Shown: positions 27,885 to 52,246, counted from the first letter of the stretch. The stretch is 64,000 nt of DNA from an uncultured Saprospiraceae bacterium (GCA_938045585.1 CALIAU010000007.1:1-64000), one strand, 5' to 3'. The notes: generated by a model from the letters alone, not told the origin. Numbers and translations: made by a program.

Positions 27885-29789
27885 ATGTCAAAAGTCCTAT
27901 CCATTTTTACTATAATTCTATTTAGCTATGTTTCTCTTTCTGCTCAAAGGTGTGGAACGGACGCTTTTGTTGCTTCCTTACATAAAGACAAAGAATACCA
28001 GAAGTACCTAAATAATCTAGAGGCAATAGCGAAAATTGCCCCGGAAAATAGATCCTTGGCATGTGCGGAGACGACAATCATTCCAGTTGCGGTCCATTTT
28101 AATGATCCTATTACATGTGACGATCCTGTCTGTTTATTGGAGGCCGTGGAAGCTCAACTTGCAGTCATGAATGAGGATTTTTTAGCACTGAATGCAGACT
28201 ATAGTTATTATGAGGGTTTAAATGATGCTTGTCCAAGTTCGTATCCAATGTCTACAGCTCCCATTGTAGGAGAAGGGGCATGTATACAGTTTTGTCTGGC
28301 GACGCAAAATCATCCCGCTTCCAGCGCACTTATGGATGGTGATCCTGCGATTACAGTAGGACAATATGAATGGGCAAGTGATGCGCCAGACTGGCCCGGT
28401 TACTTAAATATTTTTGTGGATGGTAGTCAAGGAGGTTTAGGTGTGGCTTGGTTACCTGGTGCAGGAGATGGAGATGGTTTTTGGGTTACACCAAGTGCGT
28501 TTGGTGGTCCAGGATTTAGCTGTAGTTCTGGTGGGACATTAAACAATAATGGCACCTACAACTTAGGAAGAACAGCGACACATGAGGCGGGTCACTACCT
28601 AGGATTACCACATGTATTTGGCGCTTGTTCTGATTCTGATTCAAATCCTCCAGGACCAATAGATATAAATGATACGCCTGGACAATCTAGTCCATTTTAT
28701 GGTTGTCCTACTATAAATTCGTGTGCAGATGTTCCTGAGCAGTGTTCAGGAAACGCACAAAGTATTTTTAGTTTTATGGATTATACGGATGATGCGTGTA
28801 TGGTTATGTTTACAGCTGATCAGTCCGCGGTATTAAAATGGCATGCTGATAATATTCCATTTAATACAAATACTATCTATTGTGGTGAAGGCTATGGTGA
28901 AATTGATTGTGCACTTCCTCCTGGGCCATGTGAGAATGGTGCGCAAGATGCAGACGAACAAGATGTAGATTGTGGTGGTACGACTTGTAGTGAATGTAGT
29001 TCTTATTGTGGTCTAGACTTTTTTGATGAAGGAGGTCCTGCACAAAATTATACGAACAATTCCTATGAGACGTGGACCTTCTGTCCTGATTCACCTACAG
29101 AAATACTTACTGTTACATTTAATGAATTTGATGTAGAAAGAAGAAATACGACGCAATGTTGGGACTTCTTAAGTGTCTATGATGGAAGTTCTACTTCCGC
29201 TCCACAGATTGGTGGAGAGTTTTGTGGAACTACACTTGCAGAAGCTCCAGGTGGTGGTTCTGTTTCTGCTAGCACGCCTGGTGGATGCCTTACCTTTGAG
29301 TTTGATTCTGATGGGTCTGTAACTCCAGATGGATGGGAAGCAGACATAAGCTGTGTAGCTGCTGTAGATCCAGATCTTAGTCCTGTGACTACTCTTATTC
29401 CTAACATTGCAAATGGAGTTACAAGCACTGTATTTACTGTGAAGGTGCAAGAAAATGCAGGAGCAGGAACGGATGAGGACATTACTGTTGTTATGCCTAA
29501 GGATCCAAGATTAACGATAGATTATGACCCTAACTTGACCTTACTCGAAATATTCCCTGTTGATAATAGTGATTGGGCGTATACCCCGAATGCAAGTTTT
29601 CATATCTGGGTTAGAACTACAGCATTGGATGCGAATGATAGTTCTACCTTTGGTTTTTATGGAGTCTATGACCCACAGGGAACATCTGGAACGGTAAGTT
29701 ACAATGCTACTATTTTTAATGGAAGCGGCGGAGAGTCAAATTCCTCTAATAACATTGATGTAGAGACCTTGCTTTATAATAGTAATTAA
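27885..29789 (+). CDS. Secreted M43-like metalloprotease with CUB domain
   Basis: A 634-residue exported zinc protease, signal peptide to about residue 20 (VLSIFTIILFSYVSLSAQ). The catalytic zinc motif is HEAGHYLGLPHVFG near residue 233, with the Met-turn in FSFMDYTDDACMVMFT, as in the pappalysin (M43) family. A cysteine motif NGAQDADEQDVDCGGTTC links to a CUB domain (about 370-500, YCGLDFF to WEADISC). The last 130 residues are a beta-rich domain I do not recognise (TLIPNIANGVTSTVFTVKV). There is no visible T9SS sorting domain, unlike its paralogue downstream. Confidence 0.9.
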   Translation: MSKVLSIFTIILFSYVSLSAQRCGTDAFVASLHKDKEYQKYLNNLEAIAKIAPENRSLACAETTIIPVAVHFNDPITCDDPVCLLEAVEAQLAVMNEDFLALNADYSYYEGLNDACPSSYPMSTAPIVGEGACIQFCLATQNHPASSALMDGDPAITVGQYEWASDAPDWPGYLNIFVDGSQGGLGVAWLPGAGDGDGFWVTPSAFGGPGFSCSSGGTLNNNGTYNLGRTATHEAGHYLGLPHVFGACSDSDSNPPGPIDINDTPGQSSPFYGCPTINSCADVPEQCSGNAQSIFSFMDYTDDACMVMFTADQSAVLKWHADNIPFNTNTIYCGEGYGEIDCALPPGPCENGAQDADEQDVDCGGTTCSECSSYCGLDFFDEGGPAQNYTNNSYETWTFCPDSPTEILTVTFNEFDVERRNTTQCWDFLSVYDGSSTSAPQIGGEFCGTTLAEAPGGGSVSASTPGGCLTFEFDSDGSVTPDGWEADISCVAAVDPDLSPVTTLIPNIANGVTSTVFTVKVQENAGAGTDEDITVVMPKDPRLTIDYDPNLTLLEIFPVDNSDWAYTPNASFHIWVRTTALDANDSSTFGFYGVYDPQGTSGTVSYNATIFNGSGGESNSSNNIDVETLLYNSN

Positions 29790-30079
29790 AAAACTGAGTG
29801 GTTTTTTAATTCTTATAGAAGCTCATATTAAGATTTTCACTCATTCTATTAGATAGAATAGAAGTTTGCATGTTTTATATTAAGGCTAAATATCATATGA
29901 CGTGATATCGTCACTTAAGGGCTTTTAAAAGCACTCTACAGTGTCATTTTACCGAGTCGAACTAAGAAATTTTCAACACATATAGGCAATCATAATATCA
30001 AGGGCGTTTTGGCAGATTAATTGTTTCTATTGGGATACTATCAATACCCAATGCTTTACAAAATCAAAAGTCATAAACA
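29790..30079. other. Intergenic region between paralogous protease genes
   Basis: 290 AT-rich bases. There is a small inverted repeat TTCTAT-tag-ATAGAA near 29846, but no gene or clear promoter. I looked for a lost sorting domain in all forward frames and see none. Confidence 0.4.
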
Positions 30080-32152
30080 ATGCGCTTATTGTATACTTGT
30101 ATAATTGCAATACTCATTTGCATGCAATCAACACAGCTCTATGCACAAAGTAAATGTGCAACTCACGATTTCCTGAATGAACGATTAGAAAATGATGAAA
30201 AGTTTGCCGCTTGGTATAAGGGACAACTTAAGAAGGAAACAATCGACGTTGAAACTAGATCTATTCTAAGTTGTAATACAAACAACTCTGTTATAATACC
30301 TGTAGCCGTGCATTACAATACGCCTATTAACTGTGCAGATCCAGCTTGTTTATTATCACAAGCAGAAGCACAGATAGCAAAAATGAATGAAGATTTTGCT
30401 GCAAATAATGAGGACCTGAGTTATTACACATCTACCCTAAATGGTATCTGTCCTTCAGCGTATCCACTTTCTTACGCACCCCAAGTTGGTGAGGGAAGCT
30501 GCATACAATTTTGCCTAGCAAATCAGAATCATCCTGAATGTTCCGTTTTGGAAGATGGCCAGCCGGCAATTACAGTTGGGCAATATACCTGGACTACACT
30601 TTCTGCACCCTGGCAGGGTTACTTAAATTTATATGTAAGTAATACCGCTACTGCTGGATTACCAAGTGGCGTTGCAGGTGTTTCCTATTTGCCGGGGTCG
30701 GCAAATGGCGATGGCGTTTTTATCCGTCAAGATGTGTTTGGTGCTCCCGGTGTTTCATGTAGTTCTGGAGCTACAATGAATACCTCCCCTACCTTTACAA
30801 ATGGTAGGGTTGCCGTACATGAAGTAGGGCATTATTTAGGTCTACCCCATGTATTTAGTAATACGGACTGCAGCGATATTGACCTTAACCCTCCTGGTCC
30901 TTTTGCAATAACCGATACGCCTATGCAAGAAAATAATTCAGGTCCATGTCCTGCGATAGCAAGTTGTACTGATGTACCTGAAGATTGTCCCGATATCCCA
31001 ACAAATTTTTACAACTATATGGATTACAGTAATGATGATTGTATGGTCATGTTTACTGAAGATCAATCTGCAGTGATTAATTATTGGGGTAAGCAAATCA
31101 ACTGGAAGTCTGACGCTATCTATTGCGGAGGAACAACAGAACCATATGTTTGTGTAGAGGCAGCAACATGTTCAGACAATATAAAAAACCAAGGAGAAGA
31201 AGGTATTGATTGTGGGGGACCCTGTGCAGCCTGTATAGCTATATGTAGCACGAGTACGTATGACCCTGGAGGTCTGTGTGGCTTTTATGAGAACAATATG
31301 AGTGAAACAATTACTATCTGCCCTGATAGTCCAGGAGAGTTACTAAATATTACATTTACAAGTTTTGAAATTGAAGAAAAAGATAATAATATAGATTGCT
31401 GGGATTGGCTTAAAGTATATGCAGGTAGCAGCACTTCTGCTCCTCAAATTGGTGGAGAGTTTTGTGGAACTAGCATTGCGGATGCACCTGGTGGTGGTTA
31501 TCTTCTAGCAAGTGCACCTGGTGACTGCTTTACCTTAGAATTTTTCTCAGATGTTTCTGTTGTCAAGCAGGGCTGGAGTGCTGATGTCGTCTGCGAATTT
31601 ATTTTACCAGTAGAATTAGCAGACCTACATACGAAGGTTAATAAGAACATTATCTCTTTACACTGGGAAACAAAAAGTGAGTTAAATAATTTAGGGTTTG
31701 AAGTCATGCGGAAAGAAGGGGCAAATGGCAGTTTTGAAAAAATTGCGTTTATAGAAGGCAAGGGAAATTCAAATACATCAAATCTATATAGCTACCAAGA
31801 TAAAACAGTATTCAAAAATTTAGAATACTATTATAAATTAAATCAGTTAGACACAGATGGGCATGCAACTGAAAGCGCAACAGTAAGTGCAATTATACGC
31901 GATGACTCACCAAATTTTGTCCTACACCCTAATCCTATTCATGGAGAATTTGTAGATATCCGGATGCAAAATAAATTGGAAGGCAGCTATCGTGTAGAGA
32001 TTTACAATTTACAGGGCAGATCCATTTTGTCTGAAGAATATTCTCAAAACAAAACGCGCATACCTATTGCACATTTGGCTACAGGTGTTTATATAGTTAA
32101 AATATATGAAGGGAACAATGTTCTCAGTGTTCAGAGATTGCTAAGATTATAA
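30080..32152 (+). CDS. Secreted M43-like metalloprotease with CUB and T9SS sorting domain
   Basis: A 690-residue paralogue of the preceding gene, similar from the signal peptide through the CUB domain. Zinc motif HEVGHYLGLPHVF near 257, Met-turn FYNYMDYSNDDCMVMFT, cysteine motif NQGEEGIDCGGPCAAC, CUB domain about 395-510. The C-terminus differs: a fibronectin-like stretch (VELADLHTKVNKNIISLHWE) and a type A T9SS sorting domain (FVLHPNPIHGEFVDI, GVYIVKIYEG). It is therefore a T9SS substrate likely kept at, or released from, the surface. The pair probably arose by tandem duplication. Confidence 0.92.
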   Translation: MRLLYTCIIAILICMQSTQLYAQSKCATHDFLNERLENDEKFAAWYKGQLKKETIDVETRSILSCNTNNSVIIPVAVHYNTPINCADPACLLSQAEAQIAKMNEDFAANNEDLSYYTSTLNGICPSAYPLSYAPQVGEGSCIQFCLANQNHPECSVLEDGQPAITVGQYTWTTLSAPWQGYLNLYVSNTATAGLPSGVAGVSYLPGSANGDGVFIRQDVFGAPGVSCSSGATMNTSPTFTNGRVAVHEVGHYLGLPHVFSNTDCSDIDLNPPGPFAITDTPMQENNSGPCPAIASCTDVPEDCPDIPTNFYNYMDYSNDDCMVMFTEDQSAVINYWGKQINWKSDAIYCGGTTEPYVCVEAATCSDNIKNQGEEGIDCGGPCAACIAICSTSTYDPGGLCGFYENNMSETITICPDSPGELLNITFTSFEIEEKDNNIDCWDWLKVYAGSSTSAPQIGGEFCGTSIADAPGGGYLLASAPGDCFTLEFFSDVSVVKQGWSADVVCEFILPVELADLHTKVNKNIISLHWETKSELNNLGFEVMRKEGANGSFEKIAFIEGKGNSNTSNLYSYQDKTVFKNLEYYYKLNQLDTDGHATESATVSAIIRDDSPNFVLHPNPIHGEFVDIRMQNKLEGSYRVEIYNLQGRSILSEEYSQNKTRIPIAHLATGVYIVKIYEGNNVLSVQRLLRL

Positions 32153-32203: not shown

Positions 32204-33145
32204 TTACCATCTATCCACATTTTGTTCTCTTTTCCAAGAAAACTCTAAGCTGTTCTCTATGTCATCTTCTTCCATCTTTGAATCATCCATTGCATTTAGA
32301 GTTTTTGATTTTCTTTCTCTGTCGCTATTTGGGTTTACCAGTACACAGCGGTATCTCCATCCAAAATTATCCTGGCTTGTGAAAAATCTTTTTTCTCCCG
32401 TGTACTGCCAAATTGTTGCAGCACCTCTTGATTTTACATTACGGGTATTGTTCTTATCACATGCGTTACCTTCACACATTGCCTCTTTACCTAGTCTATG
32501 TGCACCAAATGTTTCATAAATTTCAATAGCTGCTTTTAAATTAGGGTCTCTGTCTACAGATCCTAATGCATTTCTTAATCGATTTGGCACCACATTTGCA
32601 TCTGAATTTTTAGCCATGATTTGCTGGACATAGGCAGATACTTTAGCTTGATCTATTTTAGGATTATCTGTTATGTTCTTCATAAACTTATCCCAATCTA
32701 CTGGTTGCGGGTCGATTTGAGTTTGTGAAACAAAGTAGCCTATAATTTGCATGACACGCATTTCTTTATAGGTAACACTTGCATTCCCAGTCACAATATT
32801 AGACACGTCGTTTGCTAGCTTTTTAAATTCTCTCTGTGCTTTAGGATCGTTTTTCGCAACAGCTTTTGCAGTTCTAGAGCTTACCTCATTAGCCATAATC
32901 GTTTTTGTTTGATCTATGTCATGTGGGTTATCATGCCAGTGCATGAGTTGGTGCCCAATGAGTTTGATAATGTTTAGTTTCTTACTCTCATGTGATGTGT
33001 TTTCTGAGACTAGAGCATTTAGGTTTTTAGAAAATTGGTTTAATGCATATTCCCTTGTTTGCTCAGGATTTGGAATACTCTTTTGCTGAGCCTGTAGTGC
33101 ATGATTGCCTATAAATAAAGCAATAATCAAAATTAAATTTTTCAT
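32204..33145 (-). CDS. Secreted protein of unknown family, paralogue A
   Basis: A 313-residue protein with a signal peptide (NLILIIALFIGNHALQAQ), an alpha-helical middle, and a C-terminal domain of about 90 residues shared with the protein at 34703-35446: CxxGxC, then WxYTGEKxF, YRCVxV, and a final ExxWKRxxxVDxW. I do not recognise the family. The paired cysteines and four conserved tryptophans suggest a small folded export domain. It lies downstream of the sigma/TPR pair in the same direction (117 bases away) and shares their ACAACTT leader motif, so it is probably part of that system. Confidence 0.7.
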   Translation of the reverse strand: MKNLILIIALFIGNHALQAQQKSIPNPEQTREYALNQFSKNLNALVSENTSHESKKLNIIKLIGHQLMHWHDNPHDIDQTKTIMANEVSSRTAKAVAKNDPKAQREFKKLANDVSNIVTGNASVTYKEMRVMQIIGYFVSQTQIDPQPVDWDKFMKNITDNPKIDQAKVSAYVQQIMAKNSDANVVPNRLRNALGSVDRDPNLKAAIEIYETFGAHRLGKEAMCEGNACDKNNTRNVKSRGAATIWQYTGEKRFFTSQDNFGWRYRCVLVNPNSDRERKSKTLNAMDDSKMEEDDIENSLEFSWKREQNVDRW

Positions 33146-33183
33146 GGTTAAGTTGTTTTATGTTAATAAACAGTTTCTCAGTG

Positions 33184-33200
33184 CGTTGGCAGTACCAACG
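33184..33200. promoter_or_regulatory. Inverted repeat upstream of paralogue A
   Basis: CGTTGG-cagta-CCAACG, a perfect 6-bp dyad with a 5-base centre about 40 bases before the start of the secreted paralogue. It could be an operator or an mRNA hairpin; there is no T-run after it. Confidence 0.35.
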
Positions 33201-33262
33201 GCTGACCTGTATGGGAAAAGAGAAATACTCTATCCCAATTAAAAATTCTAAGTATCTTTTTA

Positions 33263-33841
33263 TTACTGGAATTGCCTGTCTAGCAATTTTTTAGCCTTTG
33301 TTTGGTAGTTTAGGCTTAGTGTATTTTTAAGTTCTATAAGTTGTTCTTTTTTATTTCCTTTTTGAAATGCTAATAAAAACTGAAGCCATCGTTTTTCTTC
33401 ATTGTAATATGCGTCTTTAAACACATAGTCCTCTAATAATGCTTCTGCCTCTGTATATCTACCTAATTTAAAATATAGCTGCGATTTCGTATAGGCATCT
33501 TTTTCTGAAAGTGTATTTCCATATAGTTTTTCCAAGACAAGTTCGTATTGTTCCGCATTCAATTCTTTGATATAGTTATCAACTATTGCAATACTTGACG
33601 ATCTAGATTTTGTGATTGTTGGAAAAGTAAATTCTTCTTGCACCATAGCTGTACGCTTATCGATAGTGTCTCCTGAAGGGAAATTTACCAGGATAAAGAT
33701 TAAAGCTACTGCTGCGGCTGCCGCGGCCAAGTATTTAAAAATAGGTCTCTTTTTCTGAGCCCTTCCTTCTTTTAAATATTTCCGCGCGGAGGCTTCGTAC
33801 AATAGATCTTTGACTACTTGCTCTTTTGGATCGCTAGTCAT
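33263..33841 (-). CDS. Membrane-anchored TPR-like protein, sigma factor partner
   Basis: A 192-residue protein with a cytoplasmic N-terminus of about 35 residues (DPKEQVVKDLLYEASARKYLKEG), one membrane helix (FKYLAAAAAAVALIFILVNF, 35-54) and a periplasmic helical part with TPR-like units (QLYFKLGRYTEAEALLEDYV). It overlaps the end of the sigma gene by four bases (ATGA), so the two are translated together. By position and topology it could hold the sigma factor at the membrane like an anti-sigma factor, although I see no zinc or classical anti-sigma domain motif. Related proteins with CHAT or caspase neighbours occur in Bacteroidota. Confidence 0.65.
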   Translation of the reverse strand: MTSDPKEQVVKDLLYEASARKYLKEGRAQKKRPIFKYLAAAAAAVALIFILVNFPSGDTIDKRTAMVQEEFTFPTITKSRSSSIAIVDNYIKELNAEQYELVLEKLYGNTLSEKDAYTKSQLYFKLGRYTEAEALLEDYVFKDAYYNEEKRWLQFLLAFQKGNKKEQLIELKNTLSLNYQTKAKKLLDRQFQ

Positions 33842-34440
33842 AGTGTTTGTTTTAACTCATTATAATATTCTTTTAGTAATTCTGACATCTTCTCATCCTT
33901 GTTCACATACTCTAATAACTTTTTCATACAAGAATGTTTCCTTTTTCTTGTAGCAACTTCACTTATTATTTTGAGTTTCTGCATAATTTCTTTCATAGAA
34001 TAGCCATGAGCCCAGTGTAATAGGAGTTCTTTACACTGTTCACCTATTTTAGAAAGTTGTGCATCTAATAGCCTTTTTAATTCAAAATGGTGATTTGTTG
34101 TGTATGCAATTTGATATGTATCGGATACTGGTTCTGACACTTGGGCAGTCGGTTCTTTCTTTTTATCTCTAAAATAATTGAGTGCTACAAAGTTCGCTAG
34201 ATTCTTAATATAGGCCTGCATTTTATTTGTATGCTGATACTTATCATTTTTGACTAGGCTTGCAAATTTAACAACAATATCAGTCCATAGAGATTCTACA
34301 TCATTATTGCTTACGCCTTTATTTCGCAGGAATGCGATAATAGGTTCTTTATATTTTGCCTGTGTGAATAGATAGGATAAAGCCCTATCATGCTTTCTCA
34401 CGTCTTGTTTTAGATATGATATTATTTCTTCGTCTGTCAA
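33838..34440 (-). CDS. ECF-type RNA polymerase sigma factor
   Basis: A 200-residue sigma-70-like protein. Region 2 is seen in YLFTQAKYKEPIIAFLRNKGVSNNDVESLWTDIVVKF (helices binding core polymerase and the -10-type box) and region 4 in LSKIGEQCKELLLHWAHGYSMKEIMQKLKI with following basic residues. The start codon is TTG at 34440: an in-frame stop lies just upstream and no ATG occurs early. It overlaps the TPR gene by four bases. It is divergent from the caspase operon and probably drives it, and perhaps the secreted paralogue genes too. Confidence 0.8.
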   Translation of the reverse strand: MTDEEIISYLKQDVRKHDRALSYLFTQAKYKEPIIAFLRNKGVSNNDVESLWTDIVVKFASLVKNDKYQHTNKMQAYIKNLANFVALNYFRDKKKEPTAQVSEPVSDTYQIAYTTNHHFELKRLLDAQLSKIGEQCKELLLHWAHGYSMKEIMQKLKIISEVATRKRKHSCMKKLLEYVNKDEKMSELLKEYYNELKQTL

Positions 34441-34702
34441 GTTGTTGTGTAATGATTACACTAAAAATAAAATAATTACTTAAGCTCAGTCATATCTGCT
34501 AAGGAAAATCATAAATAATACTCGAATGTTCATGTAACTACCCTAAAACCAAAAGATGACGCATTAGGATTATATCACATATCATCAATTTTCAGGAATT
34601 TAACAGTCTCTAGAGTAACACCAAAGAACAAATTTGTTATCTTCTTATGTAATCATTATTGAACAACTTTCTTATTATTATTTAACATTTAAACAACTTC
34701 CA
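34441..34702. other. Divergent regulatory region of the sigma/caspase system
   Basis: 262 AT-rich bases between the sigma gene and the caspase operon. It holds a 12-bp palindrome AACAAATTTGTT at 34627-34638 and the two leader copies of ACAACTT at either end. No gene is visible. Confidence 0.4.
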
Positions 34703-35446
34703 ATGAAAAATTATCTTTTAATTTTTACACTATTCCTATGTGGAGCTGGTCTCTACGGTCAGGGCGGGAAAAACATACTTCCCAATCAAAACTTACAACA
34801 AGAGCGTCTCATTTCTGACTTTACAAAGCGTATTAATAATATCGCTAACAGTAAGGCCTCTACTGAAATAAAAGCATTTCATGTGCGCAGTAGTATAAGT
34901 GATTATCTCCGGTCCTCTGATAATGTAGCAAATGAATTAGTCGTCGTGCAATATGTTGAAAAAATGAATGCAGACTCCAAGATTGATCAAGATCTTGTTT
35001 CTGATTATGTGGCTAAAATGGCTGCAGCGTATCCAGCGCGCAAACAAGTACCTTATAGCTTTGTACAGCAATTAGGCAATATCAAGACGGACAGAAATTT
35101 AATAGCCGCTTATGAACTATATCAGTTAGTAGGTGATGGTCTTGCTTCAAAAGATTTATGTAAGAAAGGGAATTGTGATTTTGCAGATACGGCAACAACA
35201 AAAACCAGAGGGGCTGTACCTATGCAATGGGCCTACACTGGTGAAAAGAAATTTGTTCGCACAAGAGAGTATTCTGGTTATTTGTATCGCTGTGTAATGG
35301 TACATAACGACGCAGACACTAGGGTGAGAAATACTAGTCTTGCTGCTGCTCCTAATATGGATTCAAAATCAAAGGATATGCAATCCGATCTTGAATATGC
35401 TTGGAAGAGAGCAGAGCGTGTAGACGTATGGAATAATCTTAGATAA
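34703..35446 (+). CDS. Secreted protein of unknown family, paralogue B
   Basis: I chose the ATG at 34703 (MKNYLLIFTLFLCGAGLYGQ, a clear signal peptide); the frame up to 34634 is an unlikely extension. The 247-residue protein is a paralogue of 32204-33145: helical N-terminal two-thirds, then LCKKGNCD, WAYTGEKKF, YRCVMV and LEYAWKRAERVDVW. The two copies flank the sigma/TPR pair on opposite strands. First gene of a likely six-gene operon ending at 42052. Function unknown. Confidence 0.7.
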   Translation: MKNYLLIFTLFLCGAGLYGQGGKNILPNQNLQQERLISDFTKRINNIANSKASTEIKAFHVRSSISDYLRSSDNVANELVVVQYVEKMNADSKIDQDLVSDYVAKMAAAYPARKQVPYSFVQQLGNIKTDRNLIAAYELYQLVGDGLASKDLCKKGNCDFADTATTKTRGAVPMQWAYTGEKKFVRTREYSGYLYRCVMVHNDADTRVRNTSLAAAPNMDSKSKDMQSDLEYAWKRAERVDVWNNLR

Positions 35447-35529
35447 AATTTGGTTAGTAAAGCTGGCAGTAAAGTGATTTACTGCTAGCACTTTTAAAAC
35501 TTTTATTGCAATACTTAAAACAACTTCCC

Positions 35530-37059
35530 GTGAAACATTTAAGCGTTATCATAATTATTTGTTTGTTTCTTGTAAGCAAGATACAGGCTCAAAATAACAA
35601 TGGTCTGACCATCGAGTATAATCTATTTAATGATGAAATAGAATATAAAATGAATGGTGAGACAATTACAAAACCCTATGTCAAAAAGAATGAAAATATA
35701 ACTGTTATCATTAAGGAATTTAATCCTTATATCACTAAAGCAGTTGTTGATGTAGATCAAAACAGTTATAGTCAAAGTTCTAGTGCCTTAGATCCAAGTC
35801 AGTTCTCTGCACAAGGTACAGGTGGTATGTCCATTTTTGGAAATTTGTTAGGTGGTCTTTCTATGGGTACAGATGTAGGATACGATTACGGTTACATTCC
35901 TGGTTCTCGTGGTGCTTCCAGCAAAGACATCATGCAATCTAAAAGTACATTCAATGCATTGACTGGAAAATTACAGTCAGTTGAATCCAATTTAAACAGT
36001 GCTTATGAAAAGTTATCCCTGTTTGAGCAGGCGCAAAAGAGCAGAAATTTAGCAATTACTGATATTGCCAATCTTAAAACAAATCCGAATATTAAGCCAT
36101 CTAGAATAAAAGAACTTATTGAAGAAGAAATTCGCTATGCCTTTGCTAAGCAAACGCATGAAAAAATAGACATCGATGATCTTATCGACGAAATGAAAAA
36201 AGAACAAGAAATACAGGCTTCTGTAAAATCCTATGAAGAGGCGCAAGAAGAATATAAAGCGCTTACTTCAGAATGGGGAAGGTTTGCTACAAGTCTAAAG
36301 GTTATAAATCGAAATAATGAGGATGCCCAACTCAACTTCATATACTCTTCAACTGATTCTGTTGTGGGTGTGATGCGTTCAAATGTTGAAGAATTTAGCA
36401 ACTTCAAGCTAAACCCGAATGTAAACTATACCTCTGAAGAAAACCATACTGTCATGGCAGAGTTACGACAAGTGTATGAAGAGCTTCAAAACAATTCTTT
36501 TAGCTACTCATTTCCTCCCATTCAGGCACGCGGGGAAGAGGTCACAATAGAAGTATCATTTGCTAAGAAAAACGAAATAAATACCTTCGAAGAATTCAAA
36601 GAGTTAAAGCAAACAATACCTGTTTCTGGAGCCTACAAAATCTCTGGTGGTGTGGGAATGGCATTTGGTGGATTTACAGAACCTACCTTTCAGTACTCTG
36701 TTGTAAATGGAATTATAACAGCTGATGAAAAGGATGACTTTATTCCTGTGATTGCATCCTTTGCACATTTTTATAAACAAAACTTAAGCTCTGTAACATT
36801 GGGAGGATCCTTTGGGGTAGGATTACCAATATTAGGTGGAAATACCATTCAGTCGGCATCTTTCTTTCTAGGCCCTACCCTACTTATCGGCCAAAACCAA
36901 CGCTTACTTTTAACAGGGGGTATAATGGGAGCTAAGGTAGAAAGACTTTCCAGTGGTTTCCAGGCTGGTGATGCATTTGAAGGGTTTACAGAAATCCTTC
37001 CTTTGACACAGAAATATGAGCTCGGCTACTTTGTATCTGTCTCCTTTAATATCTTTTAA
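35530..37059 (+). CDS. Secreted coiled-coil protein with barrel-like C-terminus
   Basis: I place the start at GTG 35530, which follows the leader motif directly and gives the signal peptide VKHLSVIIIICLFLVSKIQAQ; TTG at 35506 is an alternative. The 509 residues comprise a mostly beta N-terminal part, a coiled coil at about 145-245 (KSTFNALTGKLQSVESNLNS, then EEIRYAFAKQTHEKID), and a last 130 residues of alternating, glycine-rich strands (GGVGMAFGGF, LGGSFGVGLPILGG, FLGPTLLIGQ) ending in an aromatic FNIF, like an outer-membrane barrel. It may be an outer-membrane or surface component of the caspase system. I do not recognise the family. Confidence 0.6.
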   Translation: MKHLSVIIIICLFLVSKIQAQNNNGLTIEYNLFNDEIEYKMNGETITKPYVKKNENITVIIKEFNPYITKAVVDVDQNSYSQSSSALDPSQFSAQGTGGMSIFGNLLGGLSMGTDVGYDYGYIPGSRGASSKDIMQSKSTFNALTGKLQSVESNLNSAYEKLSLFEQAQKSRNLAITDIANLKTNPNIKPSRIKELIEEEIRYAFAKQTHEKIDIDDLIDEMKKEQEIQASVKSYEEAQEEYKALTSEWGRFATSLKVINRNNEDAQLNFIYSSTDSVVGVMRSNVEEFSNFKLNPNVNYTSEENHTVMAELRQVYEELQNNSFSYSFPPIQARGEEVTIEVSFAKKNEINTFEEFKELKQTIPVSGAYKISGGVGMAFGGFTEPTFQYSVVNGIITADEKDDFIPVIASFAHFYKQNLSSVTLGGSFGVGLPILGGNTIQSASFFLGPTLLIGQNQRLLLTGGIMGAKVERLSSGFQAGDAFEGFTEILPLTQKYELGYFVSVSFNIF

Positions 37060-37111
37060 AATCGAAACGAAACCAATGTATTTTGTTATATAGTATTACA
37101 ACAACTTCCTT

Positions 37112-39055
37112 ATGAACAAACTTCTTTCCATATTGACGTTCTGCCTTTTGTTAGGATCATTACAAGCTGAAAAATATGGCCTTATCATCGCAATTGGTGA
37201 CTATCCTGAAGAAGGTGGCTGGCCAGATATTTCAAGTCAAAATGATGTAATACATATTCGCCAAGCACTTAAGATTCTAGGTTTTCCGAGTGAAAACATA
37301 AGTACAATATTTGACCAAGATGCAACCAAAGAAGGTATTCTAAACTCCATCAATGCCTTGCAAAAGAAATTAAAAAAAGGGGATGTAGTCTACATTCACT
37401 TTTCTGGGCATGGTCAACAAGTTCTCGATGATAACGGGGACGAAATAGACAATCTAGATGAAGCAATCGTTCCTTACAATTCATACATTGATTATGTCGA
37501 AGGATTTAATGAGGGACAAAATTTAATTCGTGATGATCAGATAGGTGCTATAACGGAAAAGATGCGGAGAAGCTGCGGCAACACCGGTCAGGTTATTCTC
37601 ATCCTAGACTCATGTCATTCAGGGACTGGAACGCGAGGAATGGGTAAAGCAAGAGGAACGGATAAGGTAATGGCCCCTAAAAATTATACTAGAAATACCA
37701 GCTCGGGAGAAAAGCGCATGGGTATACAGAATCTAAATGATCCAAACCTGGCACCTATGGCAAGTTTTTTTGGGGCTAGTTCAGGAGAATTAAACTTTGA
37801 AACCTTAGATGAACAAGCAAATCCTGTTGGGAGCCTTAGCTACTCGATAGCTACTATACTAGCGAATATGGAAAGTAATTTTTCTTTTGAAGAGTTCTTC
37901 GATAGAATTAAATTGAAAATGAAATCTTTAGCTCCTAGACAGAACCCCCAGTGGGAAGGACCAGAAAACACATATTTGTTTGGAGGGACGCTTGAACAGC
38001 AAGAACGTCTTTACCCAATTAAATCAATAAATAACCCAAGCAACATTCTTGCTGAAATTGGCACTATACTAAACGTGTATGAAAATGCAAAGGTGGCAAT
38101 TGTATCCCTTGACCAAGATAAGACAGTAGCGAATGGTATTGTTAAAAAAGCGGGCTTGATGGTTTCAGAAATCGAACTTGATGCTCCTTTGGAAATCCGT
38201 GAAGAAGAACTTATTAAAATCAAAGTCACAGAAAACTGTGAGCCTCCTATAATTTGCAATATTCATGTGGATCTAGATGCAGCATCACCATGGTCTCCTT
38301 TCATTGATGAGGTTCAAACAGCTTCCTTTGTGCAGGCTGTACATTCAAATGCGGATTTGTTTATTACAGATATAAAAAACGAACTATCCATTACTACAAA
38401 AGAGGGTGACCTTGTATATAAAGAAGTTTTTAACAAATCTAAATCTAGGAACTACAAGCTTGCTTTAAAAAAGACATTACAATCGTACACACAGGGTAAA
38501 ATACTGAGATCTTATAATAGACCAGAATCAAATTTTACATTTAATTTAGAGATTCTTGAAACAAACTGTGAGGAGTCAAATTCCAAAACAGAGCACGCTC
38601 TTGATAAAGAATCTTTAAGTATACCCATAGGTACTTGTATCAAGTTTAAGATAACAAATACAGGAAAAGAAAAAGCGTACTTTTCTCTTATTGACATTCA
38701 ACCCGATAATGTCATCAACTTAGTGATACCTGCTATAGACTTAGGCTATACGGCTTCTGAATATTTTCTGGAACCAGGTGAGTCCTACACGACTGATTAT
38801 AGTATTGAAATTGCGGAGCCCTATGGAGATGAAACTTTAAAGCTCATATGTTCTGATGCACCCTTAAATCTTTCTGGAATTATTAATGGAAGTCCTACAA
38901 GCAGAGGACTAGGAAACCCACTTGTAAATAGGAATCCATTTGAAGCCTTATTAGAAAGTACGTATTTAGAAAATAACACGAGAGGCGCTAGGGTAAAAAA
39001 AGCGAGTGCAGAGCAAATTGGAACAGAAACAATATATTTTAAAATTATAAAGTAA
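37112..39055 (+). CDS. Secreted caspase-like protease (peptidase C14) with DUF4384-like domain
   Basis: A 647-residue protein with a signal peptide (NKLLSILTFCLLLGSLQA). The caspase p20-like domain follows at once: KYGLIIAIGDYPEE, the catalytic His H100 in HFSGHGQQ and Cys C168 in LILDSCHSG. Acidic residues follow the His (DDNGDEID), as in metacaspases that prefer basic substrates and often need calcium. The C-terminal part around SIPIGTCIKFKITNTGKEKAYF resembles DUF4384. It would act outside the cytoplasm. It is the third gene of the operon. Confidence 0.85.
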   Translation: MNKLLSILTFCLLLGSLQAEKYGLIIAIGDYPEEGGWPDISSQNDVIHIRQALKILGFPSENISTIFDQDATKEGILNSINALQKKLKKGDVVYIHFSGHGQQVLDDNGDEIDNLDEAIVPYNSYIDYVEGFNEGQNLIRDDQIGAITEKMRRSCGNTGQVILILDSCHSGTGTRGMGKARGTDKVMAPKNYTRNTSSGEKRMGIQNLNDPNLAPMASFFGASSGELNFETLDEQANPVGSLSYSIATILANMESNFSFEEFFDRIKLKMKSLAPRQNPQWEGPENTYLFGGTLEQQERLYPIKSINNPSNILAEIGTILNVYENAKVAIVSLDQDKTVANGIVKKAGLMVSEIELDAPLEIREEELIKIKVTENCEPPIICNIHVDLDAASPWSPFIDEVQTASFVQAVHSNADLFITDIKNELSITTKEGDLVYKEVFNKSKSRNYKLALKKTLQSYTQGKILRSYNRPESNFTFNLEILETNCEESNSKTEHALDKESLSIPIGTCIKFKITNTGKEKAYFSLIDIQPDNVINLVIPAIDLGYTASEYFLEPGESYTTDYSIEIAEPYGDETLKLICSDAPLNLSGIINGSPTSRGLGNPLVNRNPFEALLESTYLENNTRGARVKKASAEQIGTETIYFKIIK

Positions 39056-39098
39056 ACTGCTACGTGCAGTGTATTCGTAAAAAATAAAACAAACATTC

Positions 39099-39731
39099 AT
39101 GAAAACTAAATTTCGAATAAACCTATCCATACCAAGTCTAGCAATACTCTTGCTAACTGTATTCTTAATAACATCCTGTAAACAAAGTCCAGAGCAGTTA
39201 TTCACTAAACATTATAATAGTTCTGTTCCTAAGACAGAAGAACTAATTATGGAATACGCAAAAGTCATGATTAACTCAAGAGGAGATAATTCAAAAGATA
39301 CTACAACTATGGTTTTTCAAGGGGAGCGCATTACTAAGCAAGAATTTGAGATTCTAGAAAAGGCGAGAGTAGACACCCTTCTTACTGGACTAAAAATGTT
39401 TAATAATTCCAAATGGGATGATGCGCAAAAACAATTGTCTAAATATGTTCGCAGATACATGCAGCCCCTCGACGATTATAAGCGAGCTGAATTCTATTTG
39501 GCAAAAGCAAGTTTAAACAATGAGGATTATGCAAACGCTCTAAAACACTATAATAGTTTTATAAATACTGCAGGTGAGGATCATGAAAACATGGATATGG
39601 CGGTATGGGATTATGCCATCTGTCACTTAATGGCAGACTCAGGAAAGGCTAAAAAACTATTTGAAGATATATCTGGTGATAATAGTAGTTCATATTTAGA
39701 TGAGGCAAAAGCAATACTTGCGTATCTGTAA
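39099..39731 (+). CDS. TPR-like lipoprotein
   Basis: A 210-residue protein with a lipoprotein signal (LAILLLTVFLITSC, cysteine at about 28) and helical repeats (ARVDTLLTGLKMFNNSKWDDAQKQL, RAEFYLAKASLNNEDYANALKHY) of the TPR type. It resembles the periplasmic part of the sigma-partner protein at 33263-33841 in pattern. It lies 43 bases after the caspase gene and probably serves as a scaffold for proteins of the system at the membrane. Confidence 0.65.
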   Translation: MKTKFRINLSIPSLAILLLTVFLITSCKQSPEQLFTKHYNSSVPKTEELIMEYAKVMINSRGDNSKDTTTMVFQGERITKQEFEILEKARVDTLLTGLKMFNNSKWDDAQKQLSKYVRRYMQPLDDYKRAEFYLAKASLNNEDYANALKHYNSFINTAGEDHENMDMAVWDYAICHLMADSGKAKKLFEDISGDNSSSYLDEAKAILAYL

Positions 39732-39829
39732 GAGATCTTTAAAATTTCGTATTTTAAATGGCTTCCGATAATATGCGAAACCTGGGTAACATATTTATTG
39801 TCCTTAGTTATTAATAATAAAGCATCGTC

Positions 39830-41563
39830 GTGAAACAGAACAACTTCGACATAACTGAAATTGGGAACTACATAGTTCTTAATCAAATTAATCCAGAGCG
39901 TAATTCTAAAACGTATCAGGTAAAACATAAGTTTACAGAAGAGGTATGTGTTCTTAAAGTTGTGTTTGCAGATACTAAGGAAGAGGTGCTTAAACTAGAA
40001 CGTACTTTTAAACGCCTCGCATTGGGAATTGCCAAATTGCACAACCCCAATATTATTAAATTCAAGGAATTCTTTATTACTAAAATCCAAGACAAAGATT
40101 GCTTTATCTTGGTAAGTGAATTCTTTAAAGGAGGGGAATTAGACGGATTCTTAAACCGTTATGGAAGTACTTACTCATATAAAGAACTTTCTAAAATATT
40201 TCTTTCTGTATGTTCCGCGGTGGATGCAGCACATAGTTCAAAATACTTAGATGATTATGGTGTAGAGTCTATTGGTTTTCCCCATGGAGATATAACACCC
40301 AAAAACATTCTCATAAATAAAGAACTTAATCTCAAACTTCTTGATTTCAAACTTTCAAATCGATTTACTATCTCAGAAGAGAAATCTGAATATGAAAAAC
40401 TGTCTGTTATTGTTCCAGAACAAAGGACTTCACAGGTTATCTCAAAGAGCTCTGATATTTTTCAGTTAGGCTATCTTCTTAAGTACTTATTTTCTTCAGA
40501 CAAAAACTATCGGGCTTGGAAACTAGTAGAGAAGACGCAAGAAGAAATATACCAAAAACTCGACAGCAATAAAACAGGTTCAAAACGTAGGGAAATTGCG
40601 GATGCCATTTATGCATGTACACGTGAAAATCCAGAAGAGAGACTACAAACCGTTGGTAAACTTATAGCATTTTTTCACGAAGAAGAAACGACTATTAAAA
40701 AGGCAGGAACAACTAAGTTTAGCTCCATTGTATTGATTGCAGCAAGTATAGCCTTGTTGTGTGTAGCTGGTTTCTTTTTACTTCAGAACAATTCTTCTTC
40801 CAATGATGCAGAAGTTCTCACGCAGGCTACCAGGGGTGTAAAACCTAAGACGGAGGCAATAGATGCTGAGACACAGGCCGTAGGTGATTACTATGCCTTG
40901 ATGATCGGAAATGAAAATTACAAAAACCTAAAAAAATTAAGTCGTCCCTTAGAAGATCTGACTAAATTTGAAAGCATCCTAACGAATAATTTTAGTTTCA
41001 AATCTGAAAATATAATTAAGAAAACAAACGCGAGTAGAGACGACATATATGATGGTTTTGAACAGGTAACGAATCGCGTAAAGAAAAATGACAACTTACT
41101 TATTTTCTATGCAGGACATGGTCAAGTACATGATGACACGGGCTATTGGATTCCTGTGGAAGGACATGAGAGTTCCAGAAGAAACTGGATCTCCAATACA
41201 GAGATAAAGCATTTTCTAAATTCGATAGTAGCACAGAATGTCCTAGTGGTATCTGATGCCTGCTTTGGGGGAAGTATTTTAAGAGACATAAATACCTATT
41301 CTCCAAAGAAGGAAAATATCTCAAACAAGAAAAGCCGGATAGCCTTGACATCTGGATCTGTAGAGAGTGTTCCTGATCATTCGATATTTATAGATCAATT
41401 GTTCTGGTATATGGAAAACACGCAGGATTCTATGGTATATGCTTCCAATATATTTTCAGAAATCCGAGAAGGGATCCTGTCCAATACAACAAACGACCCA
41501 GGCTATGGTCCTATTCGGGATTCAGGCCATCAAGGAGGAGACTTCTTTTTTATTAAAAAATAA
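39830..41563 (+). CDS. Transmembrane kinase-caspase fusion
   Basis: A 577-residue protein starting at GTG. Residues about 1-285 are a Ser/Thr kinase-like domain: lysine K43 in VLKVV, catalytic loop HGDITPKN (D154, N159; HGD in place of HRD), D172 in LLDFK (DFK in place of DFG), PEQ for APE; the glycine-rich loop is degenerate. A single membrane helix lies at 299-318. Residues about 352-560 are a caspase (C14) domain with H430 in YAGHGQ and C478 in SDACFGGS. The kinase should be cytoplasmic and the caspase periplasmic. The catalytic residues of both domains are present. Confidence 0.85.
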   Translation: MKQNNFDITEIGNYIVLNQINPERNSKTYQVKHKFTEEVCVLKVVFADTKEEVLKLERTFKRLALGIAKLHNPNIIKFKEFFITKIQDKDCFILVSEFFKGGELDGFLNRYGSTYSYKELSKIFLSVCSAVDAAHSSKYLDDYGVESIGFPHGDITPKNILINKELNLKLLDFKLSNRFTISEEKSEYEKLSVIVPEQRTSQVISKSSDIFQLGYLLKYLFSSDKNYRAWKLVEKTQEEIYQKLDSNKTGSKRREIADAIYACTRENPEERLQTVGKLIAFFHEEETTIKKAGTTKFSSIVLIAASIALLCVAGFFLLQNNSSSNDAEVLTQATRGVKPKTEAIDAETQAVGDYYALMIGNENYKNLKKLSRPLEDLTKFESILTNNFSFKSENIIKKTNASRDDIYDGFEQVTNRVKKNDNLLIFYAGHGQVHDDTGYWIPVEGHESSRRNWISNTEIKHFLNSIVAQNVLVVSDACFGGSILRDINTYSPKKENISNKKSRIALTSGSVESVPDHSIFIDQLFWYMENTQDSMVYASNIFSEIREGILSNTTNDPGYGPIRDSGHQGGDFFFIKK

Positions 41564-41617
41564 GATTAAACATTATAGAGCTTAATTCATTTATTAACAA
41601 TTTTTAAAAATTTAATT

Positions 41618-42052
41618 ATGAAACTTTCAAATCTTTTCTTCACCTTATTATTATTCGTATTTACTGTGCAAATTACAAATGCCCAGCAAAGACGACCAGA
41701 AAAACCTAATTTAAACCAATCCAAAGATTCTTGCGAAAAACAAGCTACTTTATTTTGGAACAGTGTGAATGCAATGCCATGGCAAAATTTACAAGAATTT
41801 ATGCGTGCTGTTCAAGAATCTTCTGATTATCTAGTAAGAGATTCACGTTGTGCATCCAAAGAGAATGATTGCTTTACAGTGAGTGATGACGTTATGCAAA
41901 TCTTATTAAGTAGTCGTTGGAGTTCTCGCGCTGAACTTATGCAGATTTATCAGAACCAACTTGGTAAATTAGCTAAGGATAAACCAACATGTGCAGAGAG
42001 TTATATACTACTACAGAAAACGGATGTTTCAGCTTTTTCTAGTGGCAGATAG
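41618..42052 (+). CDS. Small secreted cysteine-containing protein
   Basis: A 144-residue protein with a signal peptide (LSNLFFTLLLFVFTVQITNAQ). The mature part has four spaced cysteines (DSCEK, SRCAS, NDCFT, PTCAES), suggesting two disulfides, and tryptophan-rich helices. I do not recognise it. It is the last gene of the operon (54 bases behind the kinase-caspase gene) and could be a substrate, inhibitor or activator of the caspases. Confidence 0.6.
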   Translation: MKLSNLFFTLLLFVFTVQITNAQQRRPEKPNLNQSKDSCEKQATLFWNSVNAMPWQNLQEFMRAVQESSDYLVRDSRCASKENDCFTVSDDVMQILLSSRWSSRAELMQIYQNQLGKLAKDKPTCAESYILLQKTDVSAFSSGR

Positions 42053-42192: not shown

Positions 42193-44154
42193 TTATGTTA
42201 CCATTATACTCTCTTTCACATCTGCACCTACGAAGTACATTTTCATTTTACCTACATTCTTTACTTCTATTTCTCCCCGATAGGTAAATTCGTATTCATC
42301 TTTTAATAGTTTATACGTATTTTCTGAAACATTAATCTTTCCTTTTACAGAATTGGATTCCATTCTAGAAGCAATATTTACCGTACTTCCCCATATATCA
42401 TACTGGAATTTTTTAGTACCCACTACCCCAGCTACAACAGGACCTGTGTTTATACCAATTCTTACATCGAATATTTGAATCCCTTCCGGTGGGTTCTTTT
42501 TTGTTTCATTGACAAAGTTCAATAGATCTATCGCTGCCAAATACGCGTCTTTAGCATTTGTATCATTAGGCGTAGGTAGGCCTCCTGCGCACATATACGC
42601 ATCTCCAATTGTTTTAATTTTTTCTAGATTATGATTTCCTATAATTTCATCAAATTTTCTAAAATAATAATCAACACTCTTTACTAGATTATCGGCAGGG
42701 ATTTGTTCTGCAACTTTAGAAAATCCTTTAAAGTCTGTAAATAAGACTGTGGTTTGTTCAAATTCTCTTGCCTCTACAAAGCCTTTTTCTTTAAGTTCAT
42801 CAGCAGTATCCTTGGGTAATATGTTTAATAAAATGCTTTCTGCTCTGTTCCTTTCCTCTGCTAAAAGTTTATTTGATTTCTTGGTAAATCGATACTGATA
42901 ATAAATACCTGCAAGAATACTCAAAAGTAAAAATGCCAAAGCATATAAAAAGTTTCTAAAAATAGAATCCTGTTTAATTATAGCTTCTTTGATAGCATTG
43001 TCCTTATTAAGTAAAGCAATCTCTTTCTCTTTATTTTCTAAGTCAAATCCAAACCTTAAGTCACCCATGATTTTATCTGATTCTTGTGTTCGAATAGAAT
43101 CCTTAATTGCTCCCAGCTTTTCTCCATAAGCAAATGCCAATTTATACTTACCAAGGGAAGAGTTTGATTGCGCTAAGCCTGCATATGCATCCCTTAGTTC
43201 TAAATTATGTCCTATTTCTAAAGCTATGTTTTCTACTTTTTCAAATTCTTTGATCGCTGCAGAATGGTTTCCTTGTTTCTGGTATACATTTCCTAAGCCC
43301 ACTAAAGCTTTTAATAACTCTCCTTTGGAATCAATTTTTTTTGCAGAGGCGATTGCTTCATATCCATATGTTAATGCTAAATTTAAATCCCCTTTTTCTA
43401 AATACGTGTTTCCAATAAGGTTTAATGCGTGTGAAGTGGAACTACCAGAGTTTCTAAATGAATTAAGAGCAATGTTCAAATAATTAAGTGCAGAATTAAA
43501 ATCTCGCTTTTTTAAATACATCTCGCCCAAGTTCATCGCCGAGGTTCCAATACCATCTTGATAATCTATTTCTTGAGAATATTTCATGGCCTTTTCATAT
43601 GCTTCTAAAGACTGATCCCAAGTTGCCTCGTCGTTAAAATAGACTGCACCAATATTTACATTCGCAGTAGCAATACGTTTTTTATCATCAATTTCTTCTG
43701 CAAGTCTAAGAGAGGCAAGATAATATTCCAATGCCTTAGGGTCATCCCCTTTTGAAAAGTACACCGCGCCTAAATTATTCTGAAGATTACTGATTCCTAA
43801 CTTAAAATTCATTGCTTCGAAGGTCGCTAAGGATTGTTTCCAATATTTAAGAACCTCCGTATAGTCACCTTTAATATAATAGGCGAGTCCAATATTCTTA
43901 TAGGCATAACCTAGTCCTTTCTTATAATTTATCTCATTACTAAGAGTGATTGCCCTATTCGAATAGTTGATTGAATTTTCTGGATCTGATTGAAAAGTTT
44001 TTTGTGAAATCTCTAAGAGAAGATCAACCTGTGTGCTGTCTTTCGCCGATTCGTCAATACTTTGGATAAGACTGTCAATTACAGACGATTGAGCCACACC
44101 CATAGTCTGGCTCAAAAACATTGCATACACCAATGTTAAAAACAGTTTTTTCAT
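42193..44154 (-). CDS. TPR-transmembrane-adenylate cyclase (class III)
   Basis: A 653-residue protein: signal peptide, about seven TPR-like repeats to residue 340 (each with GxxYxxxGDxxxAL pattern), a coiled coil, a membrane helix (FLYALAFLLLSILAGIYYQY, about 400) and a cytoplasmic class III cyclase domain. Metal aspartates are in LFTDFKGF and IGDAYMCAGG. The base-specifying residues look like Lys (EKIKTIGD) and Asp (QYDIWGSTVN), favouring cAMP over cGMP, with the transition-state Asn and Arg in NIASRME. The TPR part would sense from the periplasm. It is 31 bases behind the HD gene. Confidence 0.9.
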   Translation of the reverse strand: MKKLFLTLVYAMFLSQTMGVAQSSVIDSLIQSIDESAKDSTQVDLLLEISQKTFQSDPENSINYSNRAITLSNEINYKKGLGYAYKNIGLAYYIKGDYTEVLKYWKQSLATFEAMNFKLGISNLQNNLGAVYFSKGDDPKALEYYLASLRLAEEIDDKKRIATANVNIGAVYFNDEATWDQSLEAYEKAMKYSQEIDYQDGIGTSAMNLGEMYLKKRDFNSALNYLNIALNSFRNSGSSTSHALNLIGNTYLEKGDLNLALTYGYEAIASAKKIDSKGELLKALVGLGNVYQKQGNHSAAIKEFEKVENIALEIGHNLELRDAYAGLAQSNSSLGKYKLAFAYGEKLGAIKDSIRTQESDKIMGDLRFGFDLENKEKEIALLNKDNAIKEAIIKQDSIFRNFLYALAFLLLSILAGIYYQYRFTKKSNKLLAEERNRAESILLNILPKDTADELKEKGFVEAREFEQTTVLFTDFKGFSKVAEQIPADNLVKSVDYYFRKFDEIIGNHNLEKIKTIGDAYMCAGGLPTPNDTNAKDAYLAAIDLLNFVNETKKNPPEGIQIFDVRIGINTGPVVAGVVGTKKFQYDIWGSTVNIASRMESNSVKGKINVSENTYKLLKDEYEFTYRGEIEVKNVGKMKMYFVGADVKESIMVT

Positions 44155-44185
44155 GAAGTGGAAGTTTAGTTGCTACGTATAATTT

Positions 44186-44806
44186 TTAAGTTTTGAGAAA
44201 GTTAGGTGCATTTTTATGCAACCACGCTTCTAGTTTCTTTATGTGTTTCTGCTTTATTGGTTGTCTATATTTTTGCCCATACGGTGTTTTATACTTATGG
44301 GTAGTTAAAAACTTATATTGAATCTTATTCCATTCTAGTCTTGTCTTTAAGACCTTATGGTTTTTTAGTTCTTCGAAGAGTGTATCTCCAATTTTCTTAA
44401 AGTCACTTCTTCCCAGATAATCTAAATCGGCATCGCAAAGTATCTTAGAGAGTCTGTTTTGTGGAGATTGGGGAATCTTAGTTGCCATAATCATCTCACA
44501 GATTTTATCAATATCCTTAGATGAATAGTTATATTTTGGAAGACTCTCTCTCGCTATTTTACATCCTATTTCCTCATGATTTTTAAATGATTTCAAAAAA
44601 CCATAGTCGTGCATTAGTGCAGCTGTTCTTAAAAGGAGTCTGTCTTTTGGTTTTAAGGACAACCTTCGAATGTATCCATTGCATGCATTACAAACGTCTA
44701 GGGTATGGTGCACGCCGTGGTAGGTTAATCCCTTGTCCAAATTTTCCTCTAGATCAGAAATGATTCTGGCTCTAAGCAATCGATATTTGGGTGTCTTCTT
44801 CCCCAT
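44186..44806 (-). CDS. HD-domain protein, putative phosphohydrolase
   Basis: A 206-residue protein of the HD superfamily with metal-binding residues in YHGVHHTLDV, the HD of ALMHDYG, and DADLDYLG. It lies 31 bases before the adenylate cyclase on the same strand. HD proteins hydrolyse nucleotides or cyclic nucleotides; pairing with a cyclase suggests a cyclic-nucleotide phosphodiesterase or related turnover enzyme. The basic C-terminus (KYRQPIKQKHIKKLEAWL) is unassigned. Confidence 0.8.
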   Translation of the reverse strand: MGKKTPKYRLLRARIISDLEENLDKGLTYHGVHHTLDVCNACNGYIRRLSLKPKDRLLLRTAALMHDYGFLKSFKNHEEIGCKIARESLPKYNYSSKDIDKICEMIMATKIPQSPQNRLSKILCDADLDYLGRSDFKKIGDTLFEELKNHKVLKTRLEWNKIQYKFLTTHKYKTPYGQKYRQPIKQKHIKKLEAWLHKNAPNFLKT

Positions 44807-52100: not shown

Positions 52101-52246
52101 AATGTTAGTTGTTCTTAAATATTGTTACTTGAAAAATACAAAAAATGCAATAATCATCTCTCTTAGATAACCGCATTAACATATACCGTTACCGCTTATG
52201 GTACGAAATAGTAAAATAGATTAAAAAAAGTATAACAAATGACGTT

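Follow-up and report, generated by a model that had tools for sequence, protein, structure and literature searches.

What are the targets of exported bacterial caspases, and why should the caspase genes lie beside that of a sigma factor? To our knowledge, the functions and natural substrates of bacterial caspases have been established in few cases only. The question arises at positions 32,204-42,052 of a 64,000-nucleotide stretch of DNA from an uncultured Saprospiraceae bacterium (GCA_938045585.1 CALIAU010000007.1:1-64000; the window means this whole stretch), where nine genes, A to I, include those of an extracytoplasmic function (ECF)-type sigma factor, a transmembrane (TM) protein with tetratricopeptide repeats (TPR) and two C14 caspases, one of them fused to a kinase. 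We propose that the locus is an envelope ECF sigma module under caspase control, in which the presumed Arg-specific proteases F and H would cut partner proteins and the TM protein B, thereby freeing the sigma factor C. We regard this proposal as evenly poised.

Genes and proteins of the locus

The nine genes were located as described in the original prediction, a reading of the DNA that had taken them for a candidate new system:

32204-33145, minus strand: A, secreted paralogue of D, from a genus-only family (sequence search, alignment)
33263-33841, minus strand: B, anti-sigma-like TM-TPR protein (TM prediction, sub-threshold TPR matches, orthologue alignment)
33838-34440, minus strand: C, ECF-type sigma factor (weak SigZ/ECF matches; orthologues adjoin B and E/F in other genomes)
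34703-35446, plus strand: D, secreted; helical N-part and beta C-part in a low-confidence model (alignment, structure model)
35506-37059, plus strand: E, outer-membrane-barrel/coiled-coil protein that marks the wider module (profile search, alignment, model)
37112-39055, plus strand: F, exported C14 caspase with DUF4384, dyad H100/C168 (Pfam, orthologue alignment)
39099-39731, plus strand: G, TPR lipoprotein (sub-threshold TPR matches, alignment)
39830-41563, plus strand: H, cytoplasmic kinase, TM helix and extracytoplasmic C14 caspase (Pfam, TM prediction, alignment)
41618-42052, plus strand: I, small secreted Cys protein (sequence features, alignment with a second species of the genus)

The plus-strand series D-E-F-G-H-I is tightly spaced, with gaps of 59, 52, 43, 98 and 54 bp that match the predicted range of 43-98, and B and C overlap by 4 bp on the minus strand. 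The secreted proteins A and D, which flank the B-C pair, share approximately 32% identity and are indeed paralogues.

Both caspase domains are predicted to lie outside the cytoplasm, as had been anticipated. In F, the Peptidase_C14 match (E 7e-17) begins at residue 23, after the signal peptide, and is followed by DUF4384. In H, a TM helix separates a Pkinase match (1.7e-22) from a Peptidase_C14 match (2.8e-15), and the kinase part retains K43, HGD154, N159 and D172. Both caspases have an intact His/Cys dyad, H100/C168 in F and H430/C478 in H. As candidates for the acids of the S1 pocket we take D45 and D166 in F, invariant in seven aligned F sequences, and D376 and D476 in H; the assignment presumes analogy with metacaspases. 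With the dyad and, by this analogy, an acidic S1 pocket, F and H share the features of metacaspase/orthocaspase-type C14 proteins. Characterised non-metazoan C14 proteases cleave after Arg or Lys, owing to an acidic pocket (PMC5756287). The window genome carries no C14 genes other than F and H.

C is sigma-like along its whole length, although its match to the SigZ family (7e-8) is under the cut-off and other ECF-type matches are weak. B is composed of a basic cytoplasmic N-terminus of about 33 residues, a TM helix at 34-52 and a periplasmic TPR part, the nine K/R residues before the helix indicating an N-in orientation. Thus, the sigma gene is paired with that of a single-TM protein of N-in topology, and an anti-sigma-like N-domain occurs in the longer proteins that occupy the place of B at other F loci. 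These observations support the idea of a regulatory pair, in which B would inhibit C. The TM protein B and the lipoprotein G matched generic TPR models alone, below threshold.

For E, the structure model (predicted local distance difference test score, pLDDT, 76) comprises a beta domain and a barrel of about 10 strands, together with a disordered linker and a long coiled coil; a fold search against the PDB gave no match at E ≤ 0.001. The model of D is of low confidence (pLDDT 55).

A genus-specific locus around a shared core

All nine genes are present in the same order and orientation in G082, the second species of the genus, which confirms a co-inherited unit. Identities amount to 44-80%, with C, E, F, G and H at 67-80% and A, B, D and I at 44-55%. 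The idea of one new system with exactly this set of genes was not supported. The A/D family was confined to the genus among 150 genomes of the family (single-sequence query), and G and I were likewise found in this genus only. The same applies to the kinase-TM-caspase fusion H, which was sought in approximately 500 genomes and in one scan of approximately 85,000 genomes with limited sensitivity. Matches of H type outside the genus comprised the caspase part alone or, in a few cases, the kinase alone, and we therefore rejected the possibility that the fusion is a common stand-alone gene; it is rare. Since A/D, G, H and I were confined to the genus, we likewise rejected the full set as one conserved system.

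C, B, E and F recur in other genera with other partners. E is present in 25 of the 150 family genomes (profile search). C orthologues were found beside B and E/F in G082 and in genomes from other genera: C, B, E and F are grouped in G070, G124 and G087, and C, B and F in G017. In G145, E and F stand together with a sigma gene and a TM-TPR protein. Outside the genus, a C14 gene was seen at 14 of 19 E loci and a sigma gene at 14 of 17 F loci, within the segment examined. Partners at the core loci of other genera and at more distant E loci include a CHASE2 protein, a FecR-like protein, an M48-like TPR protein and TPR-caspases; 'FecR-like' and 'M48' are working labels, for proteins with no Pfam match and with a sub-threshold match, respectively. 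No CHASE2 gene was found in the window genome, nor any match to the M48-like gene, the latter with one query in a run that had no positive control. E matches outside the family are distant, mostly barrel-only and without module genes nearby. Judged from these comparisons, the nine-gene set is a genus-specific build around a shared C-B-E-F core. The genus appears to run a rebuilt version, in which a kinase-caspase receptor would take the place of the CHASE2 protein and TPR-caspases found elsewhere.

An arginine motif in the exported proteins

Seven of the eight exported or TM proteins carry the motif [ST]R[GS], mostly in linkers, in the forms KSRG (A), KSRS (B), KTRG (D), GSRG (E), NSRG (G) and ATRG (H), with three copies in F. 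The sites are:

32423-32434, minus strand: A, KSRG; A and D alike keep K-[ST]-R-G without variation in the two species
33599-33610, minus strand: B, candidate cleavage site KSRS, with the presumed cut after the arginine (residues 78-81); SR invariant in six B orthologues, TSRG in the protein of locus L201
35201-35212, plus strand: D, KTRG (A/D alignment; model)
35905-35913, plus strand: E, SRG in the disordered linker 89-138 (alignment, model)
38900-38908, plus strand: F, SRG (R598) in the C-terminal region; R invariant in 7 orthologues
38978-38986, plus strand: F, TRG (R624-G625) in the C-terminal region; RG invariant in 7 orthologues and mostly kept in 19
39276-39284, plus strand: G, SRG (alignment with G082)
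40829-40837, plus strand: H, TRG between TM helix and caspase domain; a conserved RGVKP island within a variable linker

The stricter form [ST]RG occurs 8 times per 2847 residues in the module and 15 times per 78060 residues in other putatively exported proteins of the same genome (2.8 and 0.19 per 1000 residues), an approximately 15-fold enrichment. It was present in 6 of 8 module proteins and in 14 of 163 others, the latter picked by a crude hydrophobic-start filter. The module density was reached by none of 5000 length-matched draws and none of 20000 composition shuffles. All nine [ST]R[GS] sites are kept in G082, compared with 56 of 95 other Arg residues (P 0.012). At five loci of other genera, module proteins contain 20 copies in 14780 residues and neighbouring proteins none in 13410. 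Among families that had not been used for discovery of the motif, 6 of 18 proteins carry it versus 0 of 39 (P 5e-4), and among the FecR-like proteins 4 of 6 do (P 1e-4). In other genera, the motif thus returns in partners that are not homologous to its carriers here.

The B site lies about 25 residues outside the membrane helix, and the same juxtamembrane position is occupied in the six orthologues and in the L201 protein, although the region is otherwise variable. In D, the site falls at the junction between the helical and beta parts of the low-confidence model. Together with the disordered linker of E and the TM-caspase linker of H, this placement would fit cleavage. The sites and the caspase domains of F and H share one side of the membrane, and F and H are the candidate cutters at [ST]R[GS]. 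The motif in B and in the partners probably connects the caspases with the sigma factor, a link that the original prediction did not contain.

A shared promoter motif

Comparison of intergenic regions yielded a motif that the original prediction had not noted, GTAAC-N16-GTTAT. Its spacing does not vary, and it precedes D and H in each of the two species and, in the window, the gene of a 2375-residue subtilase:

34615-34640, plus strand: candidate sigma-C promoter before D-E-F-G, GTAAC-N16-GTTAT; the same in G082, and before E in G070 and G124
37064-37089, plus strand: promoter with one mismatch before F, GAAAC-N16-GTTAT; also in G082
39786-39811, plus strand: candidate sigma-C promoter before H; kept in G082
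52167-52192, minus strand: candidate sigma-C promoter before the subtilase gene; kept in G082 (L256)
44973-52100, minus strand: secreted subtilase of 2375 residues, a probable regulon member (Pfam; upstream promoter motif)

The start of D was set at the ATG at 34703 because an upstream TTG falls within the promoter motif. In G082, the motif also precedes G, and the homologue of the giant gene carries the same promoter on another contig (L256). In G070, it precedes a FecR-like lipoprotein gene in addition to E. The window holds 3 exact copies, where 0.11 were expected. In the whole genome of 4.3 Mb there are 6, of which the three in the window all stand in intergenic DNA ahead of genes and the remaining three fall within open reading frames; the Poisson probability of finding three of six within one 18 kb is 2.4e-6.

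As the motif occurs in the same clusters and the same genera as C and has an ECF-like shape, C presumably reads it. The sequence comparisons thus support co-regulation of the module through a shared promoter motif, and the subtilase gene would probably belong to the regulon.

A one-mismatch copy, GAAAC-N16-GTTAT, lies inside the C gene (window 33915-33940, minus strand), approximately 75 bp before B, in all core loci (L035, L107, L108, L109, L110). It may be a promoter of B, or merely the codons of a conserved KRKHxCMKKL protein motif.

Proposed mechanism and alternatives

In the mechanism that we propose, B would act as membrane anti-sigma factor to the sigma factor C, which would drive the GTAAC-N16-GTTAT promoters of D-E-F-G, of H(-I) and of the giant subtilase gene. 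F, which is exported, and H, with its kinase inside and its caspase outside, would be Arg-specific C14 proteases. As in the original prediction, the kinase may pass a signal through the membrane. In response to an envelope signal, they would cut their partners after the arginine of [ST]R[GS] linkers, namely in A, D, E, F itself, G and the stalk of H. They would also cut B after the arginine of KSRS just outside the membrane, so that destruction of B would begin and C would be freed. Freed C would drive more expression of the module, a positive feedback. More tentatively, the locus may amount to a self-contained protease-substrate regulon: two caspases, one of them on a TM kinase, would cut one motif in nearly all exported regulon members including the anti-sigma factor, and one event would both switch transcription and remodel the partners.

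Several observations weigh against caspase control of C. The motif was spotted before it was tested; among 21,952 three-residue classes [ST]RG ranks about fourth, and its P of 3e-5 in that scan is not significant alone after Bonferroni correction. The catalytic loop of F holds one of the motif copies, and A is homologous to D. B itself has KSRS rather than RG, its G017 orthologue has RSRN, and E of G070 and G124 carries VRG or ARG. In the wider E set, loci with distant E showed no enrichment of [ST]RG. The kinase of H is without a glycine-rich loop. Finally, the TM-TPR proteins at most other F loci are longer and have no SR site but a GFA-type sequence instead; a link between caspase and sigma factor can therefore not be universal. 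At such loci, the caspases serve purely as outputs, or a different protease is at work.

That the caspases are outputs at the present locus also is the alternative that survives best, although we consider it rather unlikely. An ordinary envelope protease would free C, F and H would subsequently process or degrade surface proteins, and the [ST]RG sites would be maturation sites of exported regulon proteins. The location of F and H behind candidate sigma-C promoters and the resemblance of the C-terminal [ST]RG sites of F to self-processing sites are consistent with this explanation, as are the F loci elsewhere whose TM-TPR proteins have no SR site. It accounts poorly for the retention of SR at one juxtamembrane place in all six B orthologues and the L201 protein, in a region that varies around it.

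Improbable, in our judgement, is cleavage of the shared motif by a different Arg-specific envelope protease, neither F nor H. Type IX-secreting Bacteroidota export many proteases, and the assignment of the sites to F and H is inferred. However, the enrichment tracks loci with an F-type caspase, those with TPR-caspases and a distant E do not show it, and F and H are the sole C14 genes of the genome.

We see very little in favour of an island for phage defence or programmed death in which the caspases do the killing. Conflict systems do include bacterial caspases, kinases and ECF sigma factors (PMC8195603, PMC7159879), and the kinase of H resembles MAD6/PD-T4-6 kinases at the general kinase level. 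The effectors are exported, however; the genes around them encode secreted proteases, an HD protein and a cyclase; and the locus is syntenic in both species of the genus. The full set of no PADLOC system was found, the matches being generic kinase and caspase ones in H and F only, and no specific defence model was matched beyond these domains. The defence-island setting that the original prediction had named as possible support was not found.

Slighter still is the prospect that the genes are merely neighbours and the [ST]RG pattern chance or structural: the pattern is post hoc and falls short of significance alone after correction for all patterns, but the independent tests in other genera (P 5e-4), the full conservation of the sites and the promoters shared genome-wide argue otherwise.

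Relation to known systems

Among described kinds, the closest is that of EACC2-caspase systems, which combines an ECF sigma factor and a DUF1822 TPR protein with variable partners including CHASE2 and protein kinase, and in which caspase activation is proposed to feed the sigma factor (Kaur et al., 2021, PMC8195603). Here too, caspase, ECF sigma factor and TPR protein occur together, with the ECF sigma gene beside a caspase gene. The locus differs in that there is no room for EACC2, judged by position, before the caspase domain of F, which starts at residue 23, and H has the kinase and TM helix there. B and G matched the generic TPR models and not DUF1822. Furthermore, the caspases here are exported, and the locus has a barrel protein and an anti-sigma-like TM protein as well as the shared Arg motif and the promoter motif. 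The EACC1-associated caspase model NF047832 gave 57 bits for H and 34 bits for F against a cut-off of 140. By comparison of sequences, the locus would represent an envelope-facing variant.

In type III-E CRISPR systems, the caspase-like protease Csx29 cleaves Csx30, an inhibitor of an ECF sigma factor (PMC10028731). A caspase-type cut of an ECF sigma inhibitor, proposed from sequence in our case, is common to both; the Csx29/Csx30/CASP-sigma system is RNA-guided, CHAT-type and cytoplasmic, whereas the proteases here are of C14 type and extracytoplasmic. No Cas genes were seen among the module genes, and C scored 11.5 bits against the cut-off of 100 for the CASP-type sigma model NF041236.

For RseA/DegS and RsiW, as cited in PMC10028731, a cut of a TM anti-sigma factor outside the membrane frees an ECF sigma factor. 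The N-in single-TM protein paired with an ECF sigma factor and the extracytoplasmic cut proposed here are alike; the protease would be a caspase instead, and B differs by its TPR sensor domain and by how little of it lies in the cytoplasm. In the CHASE2/metacaspase proteins of cyanobacteria, both domains form one protein and the caspase is cytoplasmic (PMC3501461), whereas CHASE2 and caspase are separate genes in the sister genera and CHASE2 is absent from this genus. In the literature on Bacteroidetes, we found nothing for the combinations CHASE2, caspase and FecR or anti-sigma factor and caspase.

Neighbouring genes and other observations

Beside the module, a class III cyclase with TPR and an HD-domain protein are encoded on the minus strand (window 42193-44806), syntenic in both species. 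The flanking cyclase, HD and giant genes follow in the same order in G082. The subtilase (44973-52100, minus strand) combines MBG domains with some 34 ALVN-type repeats and ends in a type IX tail. Next to A lie the genes of two secreted paralogues in tandem (window 27885-32152, plus strand), the second of which (30080-32152) is an M43 metallopeptidase with a CUB domain and a type IX tail.

At the distant-E loci (L111-L124), G[FWY][AG] occurs in the linkers of E and FecR-like proteins, where [ST]RG sits elsewhere, and TM-TPR proteins that have no SR site (L200, L203-L208) carry a GF[AG]-like motif close to the outer side of the membrane. These GF[AG]-like sequences may be a co-varying recognition motif; a helix cap is as likely. 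Two FecR-like proteins (L124:4294-5856, L120:732-1808) have tandem SGFG or DGWG repeats in the linker. H-related C14 proteins from other families of the class (L215, L218, L219, L221, L222) carry an RGSGDPLKG-like sequence that immediately precedes the caspase domain and may be a site of self-processing. The C-terminal segments of caspases from related genomes (L012, L015, L025) by eye resemble FGE/Fib_succ-type variable domains, which are targets of retroelements.

Implications

The sequence alone names a candidate protease with its likely cut site and seven candidate substrates, together with a regulon and the candidate promoter for it. What exported bacterial caspases cut, and why, thereby becomes a testable question. 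If the proposal is true, it would extend the Csx29/Csx30 idea, the release of an ECF sigma factor by a caspase-type protease, to envelope signalling in Bacteroidota.

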